Shown: positions 197-36,702 of the stretch, piece after piece
Layout: every line of letters starts with the position of its first letter
Numbering within the stretch: position 1 is the first letter of the stretch
IMG/VR virus record: IMGVR_UViG_3300042691_026070
Location: 1 to 43,733 of that record
Source of the DNA: a virus
DNA length: 43,733 nucleotides
Reading direction: 5' to 3' (one strand)
Translations under genes and position numbers: made by a program
Notes under the pieces: generated by a model
What the model was told of the DNA's origin: nothing
Database searches by the model: none
What the model saw: the letters and a program-made list of their open reading frames with translations, nothing else

Positions 197-220
197 GCTG
201 GCCTCCTGCTGACACCACAG

Positions 221-249
221 GTGTAACACCTGCGCGGTTACCCGCGCAA
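221..249 (-). promoter_or_regulatory. P1, promoter of the recurrent phage family, in front of the recombinase
   Basis: On the minus strand, -35 TTGCGC (244-249), 17 bases, -10 TTACAC (221-226), then TGTCAGCAG (206-214) where the RNA should begin. The -10 is inside a perfect 15-base palindrome, CAGGTGTTACACCTG (218-232), which could be an operator. An A-tract (TAAAAAG, 262-268) lies upstream and contains the stop codon of the preceding gene. The predicted leader is only about 20 bases and carries AGGAGG. Confidence 0.7.
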
Positions 250-265
250 GGTGGTGGTCTGCTTT

Positions 266-753: not shown

Positions 754-796
754 TGTGGCCTCCTTGCGGCGGTGTGCCGCGCTGCTGACATCATGG

Positions 797-825
797 GTGT
801 AACACGGTCGCGGTTAGACACGCAA
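797..825 (-). promoter_or_regulatory. P2, promoter of the recurrent phage family
   Basis: Minus strand: -35 TTGCGT (820-825), 17-base spacer containing TAACCG, -10 TTACAC (797-802), TGTCAGCAG at 782-790. The A-tract TAGAAAAG (840-847) lies upstream and includes a stop codon. Just after the predicted start the leader can fold the small hairpin GCGGCACACCGC (769-780), followed by CGCAAGGAGG. Drives the two-gene unit 559-753 / 266-562. Confidence 0.7.
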
Positions 826-844
826 GGTGATGGGCAGGACTTTT

Positions 845-1077: not shown

Positions 1078-1120
1078 TTTGACCTCCTTGCGGCGGTATG
1101 CCGCACTGCTGACACCACGG

Positions 1121-1149
1121 GTGTAACACGGGCGCGGTTAGGCACGCAA
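1121..1149 (-). promoter_or_regulatory. P3, promoter of the recurrent phage family
   Basis: Minus strand: -35 TTGCGT (1144-1149), 17-base spacer with TAACCG, -10 TTACAC (1121-1126), TGTCAGCAG at the predicted RNA start (1106-1114). The upstream A-tract TAAAAAAGTT (1162-1171) contains the stop codon of the primase-helicase gene. The leader has the hairpin GCGGCATACCGC (1093-1104) and AAGGAGG, almost the same as the P2 leader. Confidence 0.7.
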
Positions 1150-1168
1150 GGGGAACGGCAGAACTTTT

Positions 1169-7938: not shown

Positions 7939-7995
7939 TGTGGTCTTGCTCCTGTGGTGGGTGCGGGCGCTGCGCCCTTGCTGCTGACCCCACTA

Positions 7996-8022
7996 CAGTA
8001 ACCGCTCGCCGGTTAGCGGCAA
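7996..8022 (-). promoter_or_regulatory. P4, promoter of the recurrent phage family
   Basis: Minus strand: A-tract GAAAAAGTCC upstream, -35 TTGCCG (8017-8022), -10 TTACTG (7996-8001), with GGTCAGCAG at the predicted start (7981-7987). Spacer is 15 bases (16 if TACTGT is used). The TAACCG-to-TTAC distance of 8 bases is conserved. The leader hairpin GGGCGCAGCGCCC is at 7965-7977. Confidence 0.65.
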
Positions 8023-8086
8023 GGACTTTTTCTTCGTGTGCATCATCTTTTTCTTCGATCAGCGACAGCACGGCATCCTGGCGCAG

Positions 8087-9565: not shown

Positions 9566-9580
9566 GGTCGTGGTGGTAGA

Positions 9581-9646
9581 GGGGGCCGGCTGCGTACCGC
9601 AGGAGCACAGTGTCAGCAGCGCAGGAGGAGCGCGCAGCCGGCCCCC
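9581..9646. repeat. Long inverted repeat in the divergent helicase/primase intergenic region
   Basis: Perfect 14-base arms GGGGGCCGGCTGCG (9581-9594) and CGCAGCCGGCCCCC (9633-9646) flank a 38-base loop holding TGTCAGCAG and an AGGAGG. The 9566-9754 gap holds no gene. This is the main divergent point of the left half and starts a primase-like gene, so it is a candidate origin or control hairpin. No iterons or AT-rich unwinding element are visible. Confidence 0.55.
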
Positions 9647-9754
9647 GTCCCGTTCTTAGGCCCGATGGGTGCTGGAAGCACACCGCCGGGCTAAAACCGG
9701 GGTGCCGGGCAGCACCACCACGTGCGCCCGGCTGCCACCACCACGGACGAACGC

Positions 9755-11302
9755 ATGGTGACCTCACCCGCATACCACGCTGCCAGCGTGGTGTCGAGCC
9801 TGTCGCTCCCACCTGACGAGCTGGCCCGCGCCGGCCAGCGCCTGCAGGCGGCGCTGCGGGCCGCAGCAGCCAGCACGGGCGCCCTGGGCGTCGGCACACG
9901 GGCCGCCCTGTACGGCTGGGCGGTGCAGCTGCGCGCTGCGCAGGCCCTGCCCTGCGGGCGCTGGTACGTGGAGAGCTGCCCCAGCTACGTGGCCACCGTC
10001 GAGGGCTGCACGCGCTGGGCTGCCGCTGTGGCGTGGCGTGCCCTGGGCGCGGCGGTCGGGTGGGTCGAGGCGCCCACCGCGCTGGCCCGCAGCCTCGGCG
10101 CCCGGCTGCGCCGGCTGGTGTGGGGCAGCCGGTACGGGCGCCACCTGCTGCTGGAGCCGTGGCAGCTGGCCGCCCTGCGCGCGGTGGCTGGTGCGGCAGC
10201 AGCACCACAGGGTGAGCACCGGGTGCCCGCTGCCGCAGCCCTGCGGCGCCTGCGGGCCGGTGCGCGCACGGCCACCGTCCACTGCCCGCTGCACGACGAC
10301 CGCACGCCGTCGCTGGTGCTGTGGGCGTCCGGCGGGGCGCAGTGCATGGCCTGCCAGCTGGAGGATGGCCCACCGCGCTGGGCGTGGCTGCCTGCCGGCG
10401 ACGGGCAGCACGTGCGGCTGCTGCCGGCTACGGGCGCGAGCACCGCAGGAACCCGCACCAGCACGGCGCCTGCACCCTGCCGGTACAATAAAAGCCCCCC
10501 TATGCGCCCCGCACCAGCACCTGCTGGCCCTGTGGGCGGGTGCGTAGCCCGTGGCCCGGTGCACAGCGGGCACGTCACCGCGCTGCTCCGGGCACACACC
10601 GACGCCGCAGGCCACACCCGCACGTGGCGCACACCGGGCGCACGCGCAGCTGGTGGCGTGCTGGCCGCGCTGGTGCGCGCTGATGCGGCCAGCCGCACGC
10701 AGGCGGCCCGCGACCGCGCACACGACGCTGCGCTGTTCGGGGCTGGGCTGCCGGCGCGGGCGGTCCTGCCCGACCGCCTGCTCTCGGTGTCAACGATGGG
10801 CCGCCCGCCCGGTGCCGGCTGGGCCACGCCGCAGGTGCCGCGCTGCCAGCTGTGGGTGCTGCTGGACTTGGACGACGTGCAGCTGCCAGCAGACACCAGC
10901 GGGCTGGGCGCGGCGCTGGCGGCGGTGGTGGCGTCCGACGCGGAGGCCAGCGGGCGCTGCGCCGTCGTGCGCACCGGGCCGACCGGGCTGCAGGTGTGGG
11001 TGGAGCTGGCGCACGCCCGGCACAGCGCGGCCACGTGGCACCAGCAGCCGGCGGTGCGCGCGTGGCACGCTGCGCTGGGCGCGCGGGTGCTCGCTGCGGC
11101 GCACGCGCACGGCGCACAGGGCGGCCACGCTGACGCCAGCGCCTGCGCGGCTGGACGCTTCGGGCGTCGGCCCGGCTGGCGGCTCGTGGACGGCGCGCCC
11201 TACAGGGCGCACCTGCTGCACGTCACGCCGCCACCGCCTGCCGCAGCTTGTTCACCAGAACCACCTCCAGCTGGCGCGCTTCCACCTCCCACGGGCGGGT
11301 GA
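9755..11302 (+). CDS. Primase-like replication protein: CHC2-type zinc finger plus possible AEP/PrimPol half
   Basis: 515 residues, one of only two rightward genes. Codon use follows G/C third positions in this frame. The N-terminal half contains a zinc motif HCPLHDDRTPSLVLW ... CMAC (C177, H180, C197, C200), the CHC2 pattern of primases. A Pro/Ala linker rich in rarer codons (about 235-260) leads to a second half with LWVLLDLDDV (D371, D373, D374) and VVRTGPTGLQVWVEL, then GRFGRRPGWRL near residue 467. The DxD plus downstream strand pattern suggests an archaeo-eukaryotic primase fold, but this is inference. Ribosome site weak; an in-frame GTG at 9722 is possible. Its 3' end overlaps the convergent protease gene by 80 bases. 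Confidence 0.65.
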   Translation: MVTSPAYHAASVVSSLSLPPDELARAGQRLQAALRAAAASTGALGVGTRAALYGWAVQLRAAQALPCGRWYVESCPSYVATVEGCTRWAAAVAWRALGAAVGWVEAPTALARSLGARLRRLVWGSRYGRHLLLEPWQLAALRAVAGAAAAPQGEHRVPAAAALRRLRAGARTATVHCPLHDDRTPSLVLWASGGAQCMACQLEDGPPRWAWLPAGDGQHVRLLPATGASTAGTRTSTAPAPCRYNKSPPMRPAPAPAGPVGGCVARGPVHSGHVTALLRAHTDAAGHTRTWRTPGARAAGGVLAALVRADAASRTQAARDRAHDAALFGAGLPARAVLPDRLLSVSTMGRPPGAGWATPQVPRCQLWVLLDLDDVQLPADTSGLGAALAAVVASDAEASGRCAVVRTGPTGLQVWVELAHARHSAATWHQQPAVRAWHAALGARVLAAAHAHGAQGGHADASACAAGRFGRRPGWRLVDGAPYRAHLLHVTPPPPAAACSPEPPPAGALPPPTGG

Positions 11303-11696: not shown

Positions 11697-11720
11697 GTGC
11701 TGCTCCTGCTGACACCACAG

Positions 11721-11749
11721 GTGTAACACCCTGCCGGTTACAGGCGCAA
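11721..11749 (-). promoter_or_regulatory. P5, promoter of the recurrent phage family
   Basis: Minus strand: -35 TTGCGC (11744-11749), 17-base spacer with TAACCG, -10 TTACAC (11721-11726) in a near-palindrome, TGTCAGCAG at 11706-11714. The A-tract TAGAAAAATG (11763-11772) includes the stop codon of the RecU-like gene. Short leader without hairpin, as at P1 and P7. Confidence 0.7.
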
Positions 11750-11769
11750 GCGGATCAGCAAACATTTTT

Positions 11770-12315
11770 CTACGGGTGCGGGGAAAGGCGCGGCAGGTGC
11801 CCGTCCACGGGGCAGAACTGCACGCCCAGCTGGTGCAGCTGCGGGAAGCTGACGCTGGCGCTGCCCCGTGGCAGGTCGCGGCCAGTCTCTGCGGCCTCGT
11901 GCCATCGCTCCCACACCGGGCGCAGCCGCTGCCACGGCAGCACCCACTGCGTGCTGCTGGGCTGGTGGCGCAGCAGCACCACGCCCAGCCCGCCCTGCGC
12001 CTCCCACGCGGTCAGGCGGCGCGCCTGATGCGGGTGCAGCTTGGCCAGCTGCCAGCGGTCGGCCACGCAGTCTTTCGCCTCGGCGGCCACCGCAAGGCCA
12101 GCCGCCAGCAGGACGTAGTCGGGCGGCCCTTCGGTGGCGTACACGGCCACGAACTGCCCACCCGACAGCGAGCGCAGGATGCGCATCGGCGGCGGTGTAC
12201 GCAGCACCACCGCCTGCCCACGCGCCTCATACCGCGCGTGCCACAGCTCCAGCAGCTGCTCCCAGCCGCGCCCTCGGTTCGCGTGGCTGGTGCTGGTGCT
12301 GGTGCCGCGCGTCAC
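11770..12315 (-). CDS. RecU-like Holliday junction resolvase
   Basis: 181 residues from GTG 12313-12315, which overlaps the stop of the HTH gene as GTGA. Conserved RecU features are visible: NRGRGWEQLLE near the start, LRTPPP, the catalytic PPDYV (D66), AAEAKDC (E79, K81), and LHPHQARRL (93-101), where RecU has a conserved HQ. RecU-type enzymes cut four-way junctions before packaging or during recombination. Length is close to the usual 170-200 residues. The stop codon TAG is embedded in the A-tract of promoter P5. Third gene of the P6 operon. Confidence 0.8.
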   Translation of the reverse strand: MTRGTSTSTSHANRGRGWEQLLELWHARYEARGQAVVLRTPPPMRILRSLSGGQFVAVYATEGPPDYVLLAAGLAVAAEAKDCVADRWQLAKLHPHQARRLTAWEAQGGLGVVLLRHQPSSTQWVLPWQRLRPVWERWHEAAETGRDLPRGSASVSFPQLHQLGVQFCPVDGHLPRLSPHP

Positions 12316-12629
12316 GCTGTGCGCTGGCGGCGCAGCTGGCCCAGGTACACGCCATCGGGGCGGATCACCAGCTGCTTCCGGCACAGGTGGCACAGCAGCA
12401 GCAGCGCCGACCAGGGCGGGACACGGCCATCCGTGCCGGTTTTCCACTGGCTGAACAGCTGCGGGCGCACGCCCAGCAGCGCGGCCAGATCCTTCGATCT
12501 CGTGCCAGGGTTGCGCTGGTGCCACTCGGCAGCCAGATCGGCGAAAGCCTGCACCAGCGGCAGCGTGCCGCCGCCCTGCAGCTCGCGCAGCAGCTGCACG
12601 TCCGGGTTCTGCTCGTGCTCGTCGTTCAT
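12312..12629 (-). CDS. Cro/CI-type helix-turn-helix protein, likely regulator
   Basis: 105 residues, ATG 12627-12629, overlapping the sigma-like gene stop as ATGA and preceded by GGAGG. After an acidic start, the centre reads SKDLAALLGVRPQLFSQWKTG (about 45-65), a clear XRE/Cro-type helix-turn-helix. A second helix pair with CHLC follows and the C-terminus is basic. It may repress or tune the phage promoters, several of which carry a palindrome over the -10. It is sandwiched between the sigma-like and RecU-like genes, so it would be made together with them. Confidence 0.7.
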   Translation of the reverse strand: MNDEHEQNPDVQLLRELQGGGTLPLVQAFADLAAEWHQRNPGTRSKDLAALLGVRPQLFSQWKTGTDGRVPPWSALLLLCHLCRKQLVIRPDGVYLGQLRRQRTA

Positions 12630-13099
12630 GCTGCACCCTCCAGGCGCGCGCGCAGGCGCGCCACACGGCGACGGGCGCTGAACGGCGCGCACCCGCACGC
12701 CGCGCCCAGGTCCTCACCCGTCAGTCCATCGGCGGCGGCCAGCGCCGCCTGCCACTCGTCCGGGCGCGCCAGCCGGCGGGCCTGTGCCGCCAGCACCCAC
12801 GCCTCAGCTGTCGGCGCGGCGACCGGGTGGGCGGCGTCCTCCAGCTCGTCCTCCTGCAGCCGCCGACGGCGCTGGTCCAGCATGGCGCTACGCACCGCGC
12901 GCGCCTGCCACCAGACCCAGGTGGACGGCTTGGCCACCGCGCCGTCGTACACGCGCCACCGCTCCACCAGCCGCACCAGCAGTGCGCTGTGCAGGTCGTC
13001 GGCGTCCAGGCCAGTGCCGCTCGACACGCGCCACGCGGCGCACCGCACCACCTGCGCGTGCTGCAGGACCCATCCCCAGGCTTCGCTATGCTCGCTCAT
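12626..13099 (-). CDS. RNA polymerase sigma-factor-like protein
   Basis: 157 residues, ATG 13097-13099 behind AAGGAGG. Residues of about 20-80 match sigma-70 region 2: DADDLHSALLVRLVERW (acidic core-binding helix), YDGAVAKPSTWVWWQARAVR with the aromatic melting segment, then LDQRRRR. An acidic linker (about 82-95) leads to region 4-like helices with LTGEDLGAACGCAPFSARRR (126-145) as the -35-reading helix-turn-helix. Size is typical of compact ECF-type sigma factors. It is the first gene of the P6 operon, and P6 belongs to the promoter family it might recognise. Some phage terminase small subunits also carry helix-turn-helix domains, but region 2 argues for sigma. Confidence 0.65.
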   Translation of the reverse strand: MSEHSEAWGWVLQHAQVVRCAAWRVSSGTGLDADDLHSALLVRLVERWRVYDGAVAKPSTWVWWQARAVRSAMLDQRRRRLQEDELEDAAHPVAAPTAEAWVLAAQARRLARPDEWQAALAAADGLTGEDLGAACGCAPFSARRRVARLRARLEGAA

Positions 13100-13137
13100 C
13101 TGTCCTCCTTGCGGCTGTGCCGCTGCTGACTGTTACC

Positions 13138-13165
13138 GTGTAACCGCCCGGCGGGTAGCGCGCAA
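13138..13165 (-). promoter_or_regulatory. P6, family promoter of the sigma-like operon
   Basis: Minus strand: -35 TTGCGC (13160-13165), 16-base spacer with TACCCG in place of TAACCG, -10 TTACAC (13138-13143), AGTCAGCAG at the predicted start (13122-13130). The stop codon of the RmlC-like gene is one base from the -35, so the usual A-tract is absent. Leader hairpin GCGGCACAGCCGC (13111-13123) and AAGGAGG. Confidence 0.65.
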
Positions 13166-13166
13166 G

Positions 13167-13799
13167 CTACCCGTCACGGCTGCGGCGCCATTCGTAGCCC
13201 TTGCCCACCGCAGGCCCTGCGTGCGCGTCGCGCCGCCACTCGTCGGTGCCGTCGTACTCGTGCGACACGGCGTTCAGCACGTGCGCCTCGCCGTAGCCGG
13301 GCAGCGCCATCCACCCGTGCGCCCAGCCGGGCGGCACCACCACCTGCGCGGGGTTCCGCTCCGGGTGCAGCACCACCTCGTGCACGGGCGGCAGGGCGTA
13401 GCCCAGCCGGGTGGCTCGGTCGTGTGCGCGCAAGTCGTACAGGGCCAGCAGCACGGCGCCGCGCAGCACCGTGAAGCGGTCGGACTGCTGCGCGTGCAGG
13501 TGCCAGCCCTTGACCACGCCCTCGGCGGTGGTGCTGGCGTAGACCTGCGCCACCTCGCCACGGCGCGGCAGCTGCACCTCGCCGGGCAGGCGCTCGCGGT
13601 GCCAGCTGACGCGGTGCAGCTCCACCAGGGCGCCGCGCGCGTCCACGTGCCAGCGCAGCGGGCGCACCTCGACCGGATGGGCGTGCCACGGCTCCGTGCC
13701 GCCCAGCGTGCGCACCACGGGCAGCGGGTGCTGCTGCGGGCTGGTGGCCCAGCGGGTGTAACCCTGCGCCTCGTAGATGGTTGCGATGTCGTCGTTCAT
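13167..13799 (-). CDS. RmlC-like cupin: dTDP-4-keto-6-deoxyhexose 3,5-epimerase family
   Basis: 210 residues, ATG 13797-13799 with AGGAGG upstream, overlapping the previous gene as ATGA. After about 40 extra residues, the RmlC pattern appears: PLRWHVDARGALVELHR (48-63), WHLHAQQSDRF (99-109, the family His...Q), VLRGAVLLALYDLR, and VVVPPGWAHGWMAL (153-166). RmlC converts dTDP-4-keto-6-deoxyglucose toward dTDP-L-rhamnose, the step before RmlD. An RmlD-like gene lies 4.5 kb upstream in the same orientation. Substrate is inferred; related cupins act on other dTDP-ketosugars. Confidence 0.75.
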   Translation of the reverse strand: MNDDIATIYEAQGYTRWATSPQQHPLPVVRTLGGTEPWHAHPVEVRPLRWHVDARGALVELHRVSWHRERLPGEVQLPRRGEVAQVYASTTAEGVVKGWHLHAQQSDRFTVLRGAVLLALYDLRAHDRATRLGYALPPVHEVVLHPERNPAQVVVPPGWAHGWMALPGYGEAHVLNAVSHEYDGTDEWRRDAHAGPAVGKGYEWRRSRDG

Positions 13800-15674: not shown

Positions 15675-15698
15675 GGTGTCCTCCTGCTGACGGTTAGT

Positions 15699-15727
15699 GT
15701 GTAACACCTGCGCGGTTAGGGGCGCAA
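15699..15727 (-). promoter_or_regulatory. P7, family promoter of the VWA gene
   Basis: Minus strand: -35 TTGCGC (15722-15727), 17-base spacer with TAACCG, -10 TTACAC (15699-15704), CGTCAGCAG at 15684-15691. The usual A-tract is replaced by the T-run of the MoxR terminator. Confidence 0.7.
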
Positions 15728-15738
15728 GGTGCGCACGC

Positions 15739-16936: not shown

Positions 16937-16989
16937 GGCCTTGCTCCTGCGGTGGTGGTGGTGGGCGCTGCGCCCTGCTGACAACGCTA

Positions 16990-17018
16990 CGCTAACCGGG
17001 CAGCGGTTAGGGGCGCAA
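16990..17018 (-). promoter_or_regulatory. P8, family promoter of the MoxR gene
   Basis: Minus strand: -35 TTGCGC (17013-17018), 17-base spacer with TAACCG, -10 TTAGCG (16990-16995; TAGCGT with 18), TTGTCAGCAG at the predicted start (16975-16984). Leader hairpin GGGCGCAGCGCCC (16963-16975) is shared with P4. Confidence 0.7.
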
Positions 17019-17043
17019 GGTGTGCGCCAGCAGAAAGGCAAAG

Positions 17044-18188: not shown

Positions 18189-18242
18189 GGTGTCTCTCCT
18201 TGCGGTTACTGCTGACAGCGGTGCACCGGCACCGTGCCAACG

Positions 18243-18271
18243 GTATAACCGCGTCGCCGTTAGGCGCGCAA
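18243..18271 (-). promoter_or_regulatory. P9, family promoter of the 360-aa gene
   Basis: Minus strand: -35 TTGCGC (18266-18271), 17-base spacer with TAACGG, -10 TTATAC (18243-18248), the best consensus -10 of the set, in the palindrome CGGTTATACCG. Here TGTCAGCAG (18209-18217) is 19 rather than 6 bases downstream of the -10, the one exception in the family. Confidence 0.65.
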
Positions 18272-18290
18272 GCGAGACAGCCAGAAAAAG

Positions 18291-35131: not shown

Positions 35132-35137
35132 ATCGTA
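35132..35137 (-). promoter_or_regulatory. Candidate late -10 element before the tape measure gene
   Basis: Minus strand GCGATACGATGCG: TACGAT fits TAnnnT, 17 bases upstream of the tape measure ATG. One of four GYGATACnnTG elements in front of late genes. No shared -35. With so short a leader, RNA from here would be close to leaderless, which lowers confidence. Confidence 0.3.
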
Positions 35138-35168
35138 TCGCGGCGGCGCGCTACACGGGGCGCGCGGG

Positions 35169-35977: not shown

Positions 35978-35983
35978 ACTGTA
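35978..35983 (-). promoter_or_regulatory. Candidate late -10 element before the tail chaperone gene
   Basis: Minus strand GCGTGATACAGTGCG: TACAGT with an extended TG one base upstream (TGATACAGT), 28 bases before the chaperone ATG and just after the hairpin that follows the tail tube gene. No clear -35. Confidence 0.4.
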
Positions 35984-36008
35984 TCACGCTGGAGCGCCCA
36001 CACGCACG

Positions 36009-36676: not shown

Positions 36677-36682
36677 AGGGTA
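36677..36682 (-). promoter_or_regulatory. Candidate late -10 element before the tail tube gene
   Basis: Minus strand GCGTGATACCCTGGG: TACCCT with extended TG (TGATACCCT), about 67 bases before the tail tube GTG. The same GTGATAC core as at 35983. No clear -35. Confidence 0.4.
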
Positions 36683-36702
36683 TCACGCAGCAGCGCGGCG
36701 GT

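Follow-up and report, generated by a model that had tools for sequence, protein, structure and literature searches.

Phage-encoded sigma factors are known from a few model phages, and those that have been characterized act mainly on middle or late genes (phiEco32 gp36 and 7-11 gp47, PMC8948821; T4 gp55, PMC2988020). The phiEco32 protein gp36 lacks region 4 and reads a single element, tAATGTAtA, and gp47 of phage 7-11 (SaPh711_gp47) reads GTAAtg-(16)-aCTA (PMC8948821). In T4, late promoters are recognized by gp55, and gp33 acts as a mimic of region 4 (PMC2988020). For 7-11 it was suggested in an earlier analysis that host as well as phage promoters drive the sigma gene (PMC4331800), which is a precedent for the positive feedback loop that a sequence-only reading had suggested for the locus described here. 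According to that reading, a sigma-factor-like gene stands behind P6, a member of the promoter family that its product may read.

The stretch of DNA that was analyzed, referred to as the window, is a viral record of 43,733 bases with 72% GC and nearly all of its genes on the minus strand (Table 1). It is a fragment, and the capsid and other head genes of longer relatives fall outside it. The sigma gene has an ATG start and a strong ribosome binding site. Judged from profile and structure-database alignments, its 157-aa product is almost certainly a genuine member of the sigma-70 family with a small two-domain layout, made up of region 2 (residues 12-79) and a region-4-like part (about 113-154) only, with neither region 1.1 nor region 3. 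The Pfam profile Sigma70_r2 (PF04542) matched residues 12-79 with 27.6 bits (cut-off 24) and was found in all six homologues scanned; the copies in G001, G004, G012 and G017 exceeded the cut-off. The sigma70-ECF profile TIGR02937 aligned end to end (residues 16-154, model positions 13-162 of 165, E 6.8e-7; E 2.4e-9 for the best homologue), yet the window protein stayed under the curated cut-off (29.1 vs 42.9 bits), and we therefore file it as a sigma-70 family protein with ECF layout and not as a certified ECF sigma factor. The best PDB sequence match was the ECF factor SigE (9m9d; residues 10-153, E 3.8e-5), with a gap-free alignment in region 2.3 (KPSTWVWWQARAVRSAMLD in the window protein, QPGTFEGWLHRITTNLFLD in SigE). 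For region 4 there was no separate Pfam match; the TIGR02937 and SigE alignments reach residues 153-154, and the region-4 helix PFSAR(R/K)RVARL is nearly invariant, even at 35% identity. The region 2- and region 4-like parts that had been read from the sequence alone are supported, firmly for region 2 and less so for region 4.

The sigma gene and the gene that follows it overlap by 4 bases (ATGA), stop codon on start codon. The 105-aa product of the second gene had been described as a Cro/CI-type HTH protein, and the profiles point weakly the same way: HTH_3 was detected in 6 of 7 homologues, with all matches weak and under the cut-off (best E 0.003), and HTH_31 gave a weak match of 0.008. Alignment searches with the sigma and HTH proteins led to one common set of seven viral contigs, which includes two near-duplicate pairs; a further contig, G017, the eighth, carries proteins with 35% (sigma) and 40% (HTH) identity to those of the window. 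Sigma and HTH genes are direct neighbors in each of these eight relatives. The phage group with this pair, the window included, ranges from 46 to 72% GC.

No match to the sigma protein was obtained by tblastn over 50,697 named phage records, and the capsid and major tail proteins had no match among phage records; no cultured member of the group was found. Among the bacterial genomes searched there were no relatives of the sigma protein, and the promoter pattern gave only single chance matches of at most 10.5 bits, so neither a prophage nor a host was identified. No tRNAs were found. In G004 (L025, 12054-14456), genes resembling QueC, QueD, FolE and QueE of 7-deazaguanine synthesis were recognized by eye, hinting that the phage DNA is perhaps modified.

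Table 1. Positions of the genes, promoters and palindromes in the window
Feature	Positions	Strand	Basis or remark
Sigma-70-family gene (ECF layout, regions 2 and 4)	12626..13099	minus	157 aa; profile and PDB matches
Cro/CI-like HTH gene	12312..12629	minus	105 aa; weak profile matches, pair conservation
RecU-like Holliday junction resolvase gene	11770..12315	minus	third gene behind P6; profile match
P6	13123..13166	minus	-35 TTGCGC, spacer 17, GTTA at -14..-11, GTCAGCAG
Palindrome GGGTAGC-TTGCGC-GCTACCC over the P6 -35	13153..13172	minus	kept in G004, G006 and G007
Palindrome GTTAC-ACG-GTAAC over the P6 -10	13132..13144	minus
Class I promoter, serine recombinase	206..250	minus	pattern score
Class I promoter, 64-aa orphan	782..826	minus	pattern score
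Class I promoter, 57-aa orphan	1106..1150	minus	pattern score
Class I promoter, 195-aa gene, then exonuclease, Sak4-like, SSB-like and primase/helicase genes	7981..8023	minus
Class I promoter, metallopeptidase-like gene	11706..11750	minus	pattern score
Class I promoter, VWA gene	15684..15728	minus	pattern score
Class I promoter, MoxR ATPase	16975..17019	minus	pattern score
Class I variant, 360-aa gene	18209..18272	minus	insert before GTCAGCAG
Class I promoter, 126-aa ORF among late genes	41142..41184	plus	pattern score
Class II element, tape measure gene	35132..35141	minus	GCGATACGAT
Class II element	35978..35987	minus	GTGATACAGT
Class II element, major tail gene	36677..36686	minus	GTGATACCCT
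Class II element, glycosyltransferase-like gene	41061..41070	minus	GCGATACGGT

The promoter family to which P6 belongs, here called class I, is real. Its layout is CTTGCG-N(1-4)-TAAC-N10-TTA-N10-GTCAGCAG, and the window holds nine core sites and one variant. The window sites scored 40-49 bits, and none was above 8 bits in block-shuffled controls. Six contigs together gave 34 core sites of 35-50 bits, compared with at most 10 in shuffles; for these 34 the distances from TAAC to TTA and from TAAC to GTCAGCAG were fixed by the search pattern, and neither TTGCG nor the A-tract was required. In 29 of the 34 sites, TTGCG precedes the TA by 16 or 18 bases, and in one site it is absent; the remaining four are P6 sites with a spacing of 17, which no other class I site shares. 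Most sites have a plain A-tract, similar to an UP element, at about -50 to -55. The T at -7 of sigma-A promoters is present in 10 of the 34 (mostly GC-rich) sites. Class I is confined to the early side; in G004, no site of the structural half exceeded the threshold.

The eight-base motif GTCAGCAG stands at about +1 to +8 of all class I sites, presumably at the start of the early transcripts, and in the variant at 18272 its sequence is kept despite the displacement by the insert. The ORF of 126 aa with its class I promoter (41142-41594, plus strand) lies amid minus-strand structural genes. An ECF-type reading of the sites, with TAACC as -35 and GTC as -10, was rejected, as it would require a spacing of about 22 and as GTCAGCAG is displaced in the 18272 variant. 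Among the genes that had been assigned to the regulon, MoxR and RecU were confirmed and the VWA gene fell just under the profile cut-off. The recombinase gene is truncated where the window ends and was recognized by eye, and the supposed zinc protease is weakly supported (DUF6782, E 0.002).

Sigma is indeed the first gene behind P6, its ATG following the GTCAGCA by 24 nt, and the palindromes that had been described over the -10 are in place. P6 itself is atypical within the family. The four P6 sites with TTGCG have no upstream A-tract, carry TACCC instead of TAACC, and possess the palindrome over the -35 as well as a further half-site GTAAC. At the P6 position of G001 there is no TTGCG, and the -10 is TATACT. 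No TTGCG-plus-TAAC signal was recognized upstream of sigma in G012 and G017. A conserved positive feedback loop through class I is therefore not supported.

Relatives of lower GC bear on what reads class I. G017, a contig of 71 kb with 46% GC that is syntenic with the window, has TTGTTC-17-TATAAT before the VWA gene, TTGCTT-16-TATTAT before the 360-aa gene, TATTAT with TAACC before MoxR, and TTGTTA-17-TATATT and TTGCAA-17-TACACT before other early genes. In the four of these promoters other than that of MoxR, TAAC is kept about 15 bases before the -10. In G001 (64% GC) one class I member reads TTGACT-18-TACACT. Such a drift towards the sigma70 consensus in low GC is expected if the host housekeeping sigma factor reads class I. 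A canonical sigma70 search over the genomes gave no clear excess vs shuffles, and sigma70-like scores in G017 were as frequent in antisense as in sense intergenic matches (16 vs 16); such scores are not uncommon at 46% GC, and what counts for the argument is that they occur together with TAAC before orthologous genes. TAAC is not a sigma70 element; this half-site is best explained as half of a putative phage operator, and the co-produced HTH protein is its likely candidate ligand.

In lambda, phiC31 and L5, the repressor has one operator that is shared by many early promoters. The locus resembles these phages in having a 17-bp palindrome over the -10 of many early promoters and a small HTH protein as putative ligand; it differs in that the HTH protein is made together with a sigma factor.

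A second element, G(T/C)GATAnnnT or more closely G(T/C)GATAcagT, which the sequence-only reading had not described, came to light when the intergenic gaps among the relatives' structural genes were inspected. This class II comprises 25 sites before late genes, as a single element with no conserved -35, and occurs at orthologous positions in the window, G004, G001, G009 and G012. A blind Gibbs search of late upstream regions recovered it (score 91 vs 36 for shuffled sequences). At the start of the late operon in relatives, the ATG follows the element after 5-6 bases, a leaderless arrangement, and TGCGCA arrays lie upstream of two late promoters. In G017 and G018, both 46% GC, several orthologous late sites keep the core (ATGATACATT, CTGATACAGT, GTGATACAGT/GTGGTACAGT), and several orthologous late promoters hold TAC(A/G), with C and not T at the third base of the -10. 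The late core was not enriched over the whole late region of G017 (20 vs 17.5), and the support for class II from the 46% GC phages is modest.

The analogy with known phage sigma factors and the drift of class I led us to the reading, the most likely of those weighed but put forward tentatively, that the sigma-HTH pair works as a switch from early to late genes and not as a loop of positive feedback. As its basis we infer host reading of class I, binding by the HTH protein and reading of class II by the phage sigma. P6 would drive the sigma and the Cro/CI-like protein together, early in infection. Class I would most likely be read by the host housekeeping sigma through the TTG(CG) and TA(nnnT) elements; the rigid palindrome TAAC-N10-TTA, which covers the spacer and the -10, would be the proposed phage operator that these promoters share for the HTH protein. 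The phage sigma would then redirect the host core polymerase to the G(T/C)GATAcagT promoters before the structural genes, and by this analysis class II is more likely to be its target, as the better candidate of the two classes. Several observations count against parts of this scheme, among them the modest class II signal in the 46% GC phages. The nearly invariant region-4 helix predicts a -35, which class II lacks. Class II, written as TGnTAnnnT, could itself be an extended -10 promoter of host sigma-A; TANNNT adjoining ORFs is an ordinary pattern in Deinococcus-Thermus (PMC12340547). The T at -7 is missing in most GC-rich class I sites, unlike the preference of sigma-A. A wider claim is doubtful, namely that one early operon holds both halves of the switch, with the HTH protein shutting every early promoter through the shared operator and sigma opening every late one, as a cassette conserved in a group of 46-72% GC in which no cultured phage was found.

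The sequence-only reading, in which sigma reads class I including its own P6 as an early or middle feedback regulon and leaves the late and divergent promoters to host sigma, now appears unlikely. It would account for the region-4 helix, as only class I has a conserved -35, for the GC-rich class I members without the -7 T, for the resemblance of the late TGnTAnnnT elements to the sigma-A type, and for the co-occurrence of sigma and class I in those GC-rich contigs in which the early region is present. It is weakened by the near-canonical sigma70 promoters of G017 at the same early genes and by the G001 promoters, TTGACT-18-TACACT and the TATACT at sigma itself. The atypical P6, with no similar signal recognized before sigma in G012 and G017, speaks against the self-feedback, and the separate late class is a more usual kind of phage-sigma target. 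The replication genes would moreover depend on a phage factor for whose first synthesis the window offers no clear host promoter. Potential sigma-less controls were set aside, G009 and G013 because they are fragments without the sigma locus and G020 because it is too distant.

About as unlikely is a third explanation, that host sigma-A reads both classes, class I with its -35 and class II as an extended -10 aided by activators at the TGCGCA arrays, and that the phage sigma either acts on a third set not seen here or alters the transcription of the host. G at -14, T at -12 and A at -11 are common to both classes, T at -7 is kept in class II, and the arrays before two late promoters and the leaderless spacing at the late operon start would fit; no third promoter set tied to sigma was found, and constitutive expression of structural genes would be out of the ordinary. 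A degenerate sigma, such as a decoy or anti-host factor, that has lost the ability to support initiation would agree with the TIGR02937 score below the curated cut-off and the missing region-4 Pfam match, but is very unlikely given that regions 2 and 4 are strongly conserved among homologues whose identity ranges between 35% and 87% and whose genes keep the same partner.

The region between the helicase and a plus-strand primase-like gene (9566-9720) contains a long hairpin with a stem of about 14 bp, in which compensatory changes were observed in 5 phages, with 6 pairs changed on both sides; in G012 a hairpin was seen by eye at the same place. Its conserved loop, CCTGCGCTGCTGACACTGTGCTC, contains the reverse complement of GTCAGCAG. 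The hairpin had no Rfam match and is possibly an origin or an RNA element. At about 9600-9720, a divergent promoter-like pair (CTATAAC/CTATGAT in G007) surrounds the inverted repeat GGTGTGC-N4-GCACACC and is a possible third promoter class. The primase-like gene (9722-11302, plus strand) had no Pfam match; it has a CHC2-like zinc motif, CPLHDDRTPSL...C.AC, is conserved in the relatives, and is transcribed against its neighbors, being co-directional in G012 only.

Returning to the early-to-late switch, its candidate sigma shares features with each of the described factors. SaPh711_gp47 of 7-11 is likewise a phage sigma; it joins the host core polymerase, as the sigma of the window may do, and reads bipartite phage-specific promoters. 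In 7-11 the bipartite promoters precede late genes, whereas here the bipartite set precedes early genes and looks host-like. The single -10-like element without a -35 in class II resembles the late or middle/late elements of phiEco32 gp36 and T4 gp55. However, gp36 has no region 4 homology and gp55 uses the separate gp33, whereas the sigma of the window has a conserved region-4-like helix. With bacterial ECF factors such as SigE (9m9d) it shares the two-domain layout, the P-x-T-W/F-x-x-W...D spacing of region 2 and, probably, the HTH of region 4; it differs in being distant in sequence, phage-encoded beside an HTH gene, and under the TIGR02937 cut-off.

This phage group offers a sigma factor with the ECF layout, whose gene is consistently paired with an HTH gene, and two clean promoter classes across related contigs. 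Comparison of the GC-rich phage with its low-GC relative can help to separate host-type from phage-specific promoters.
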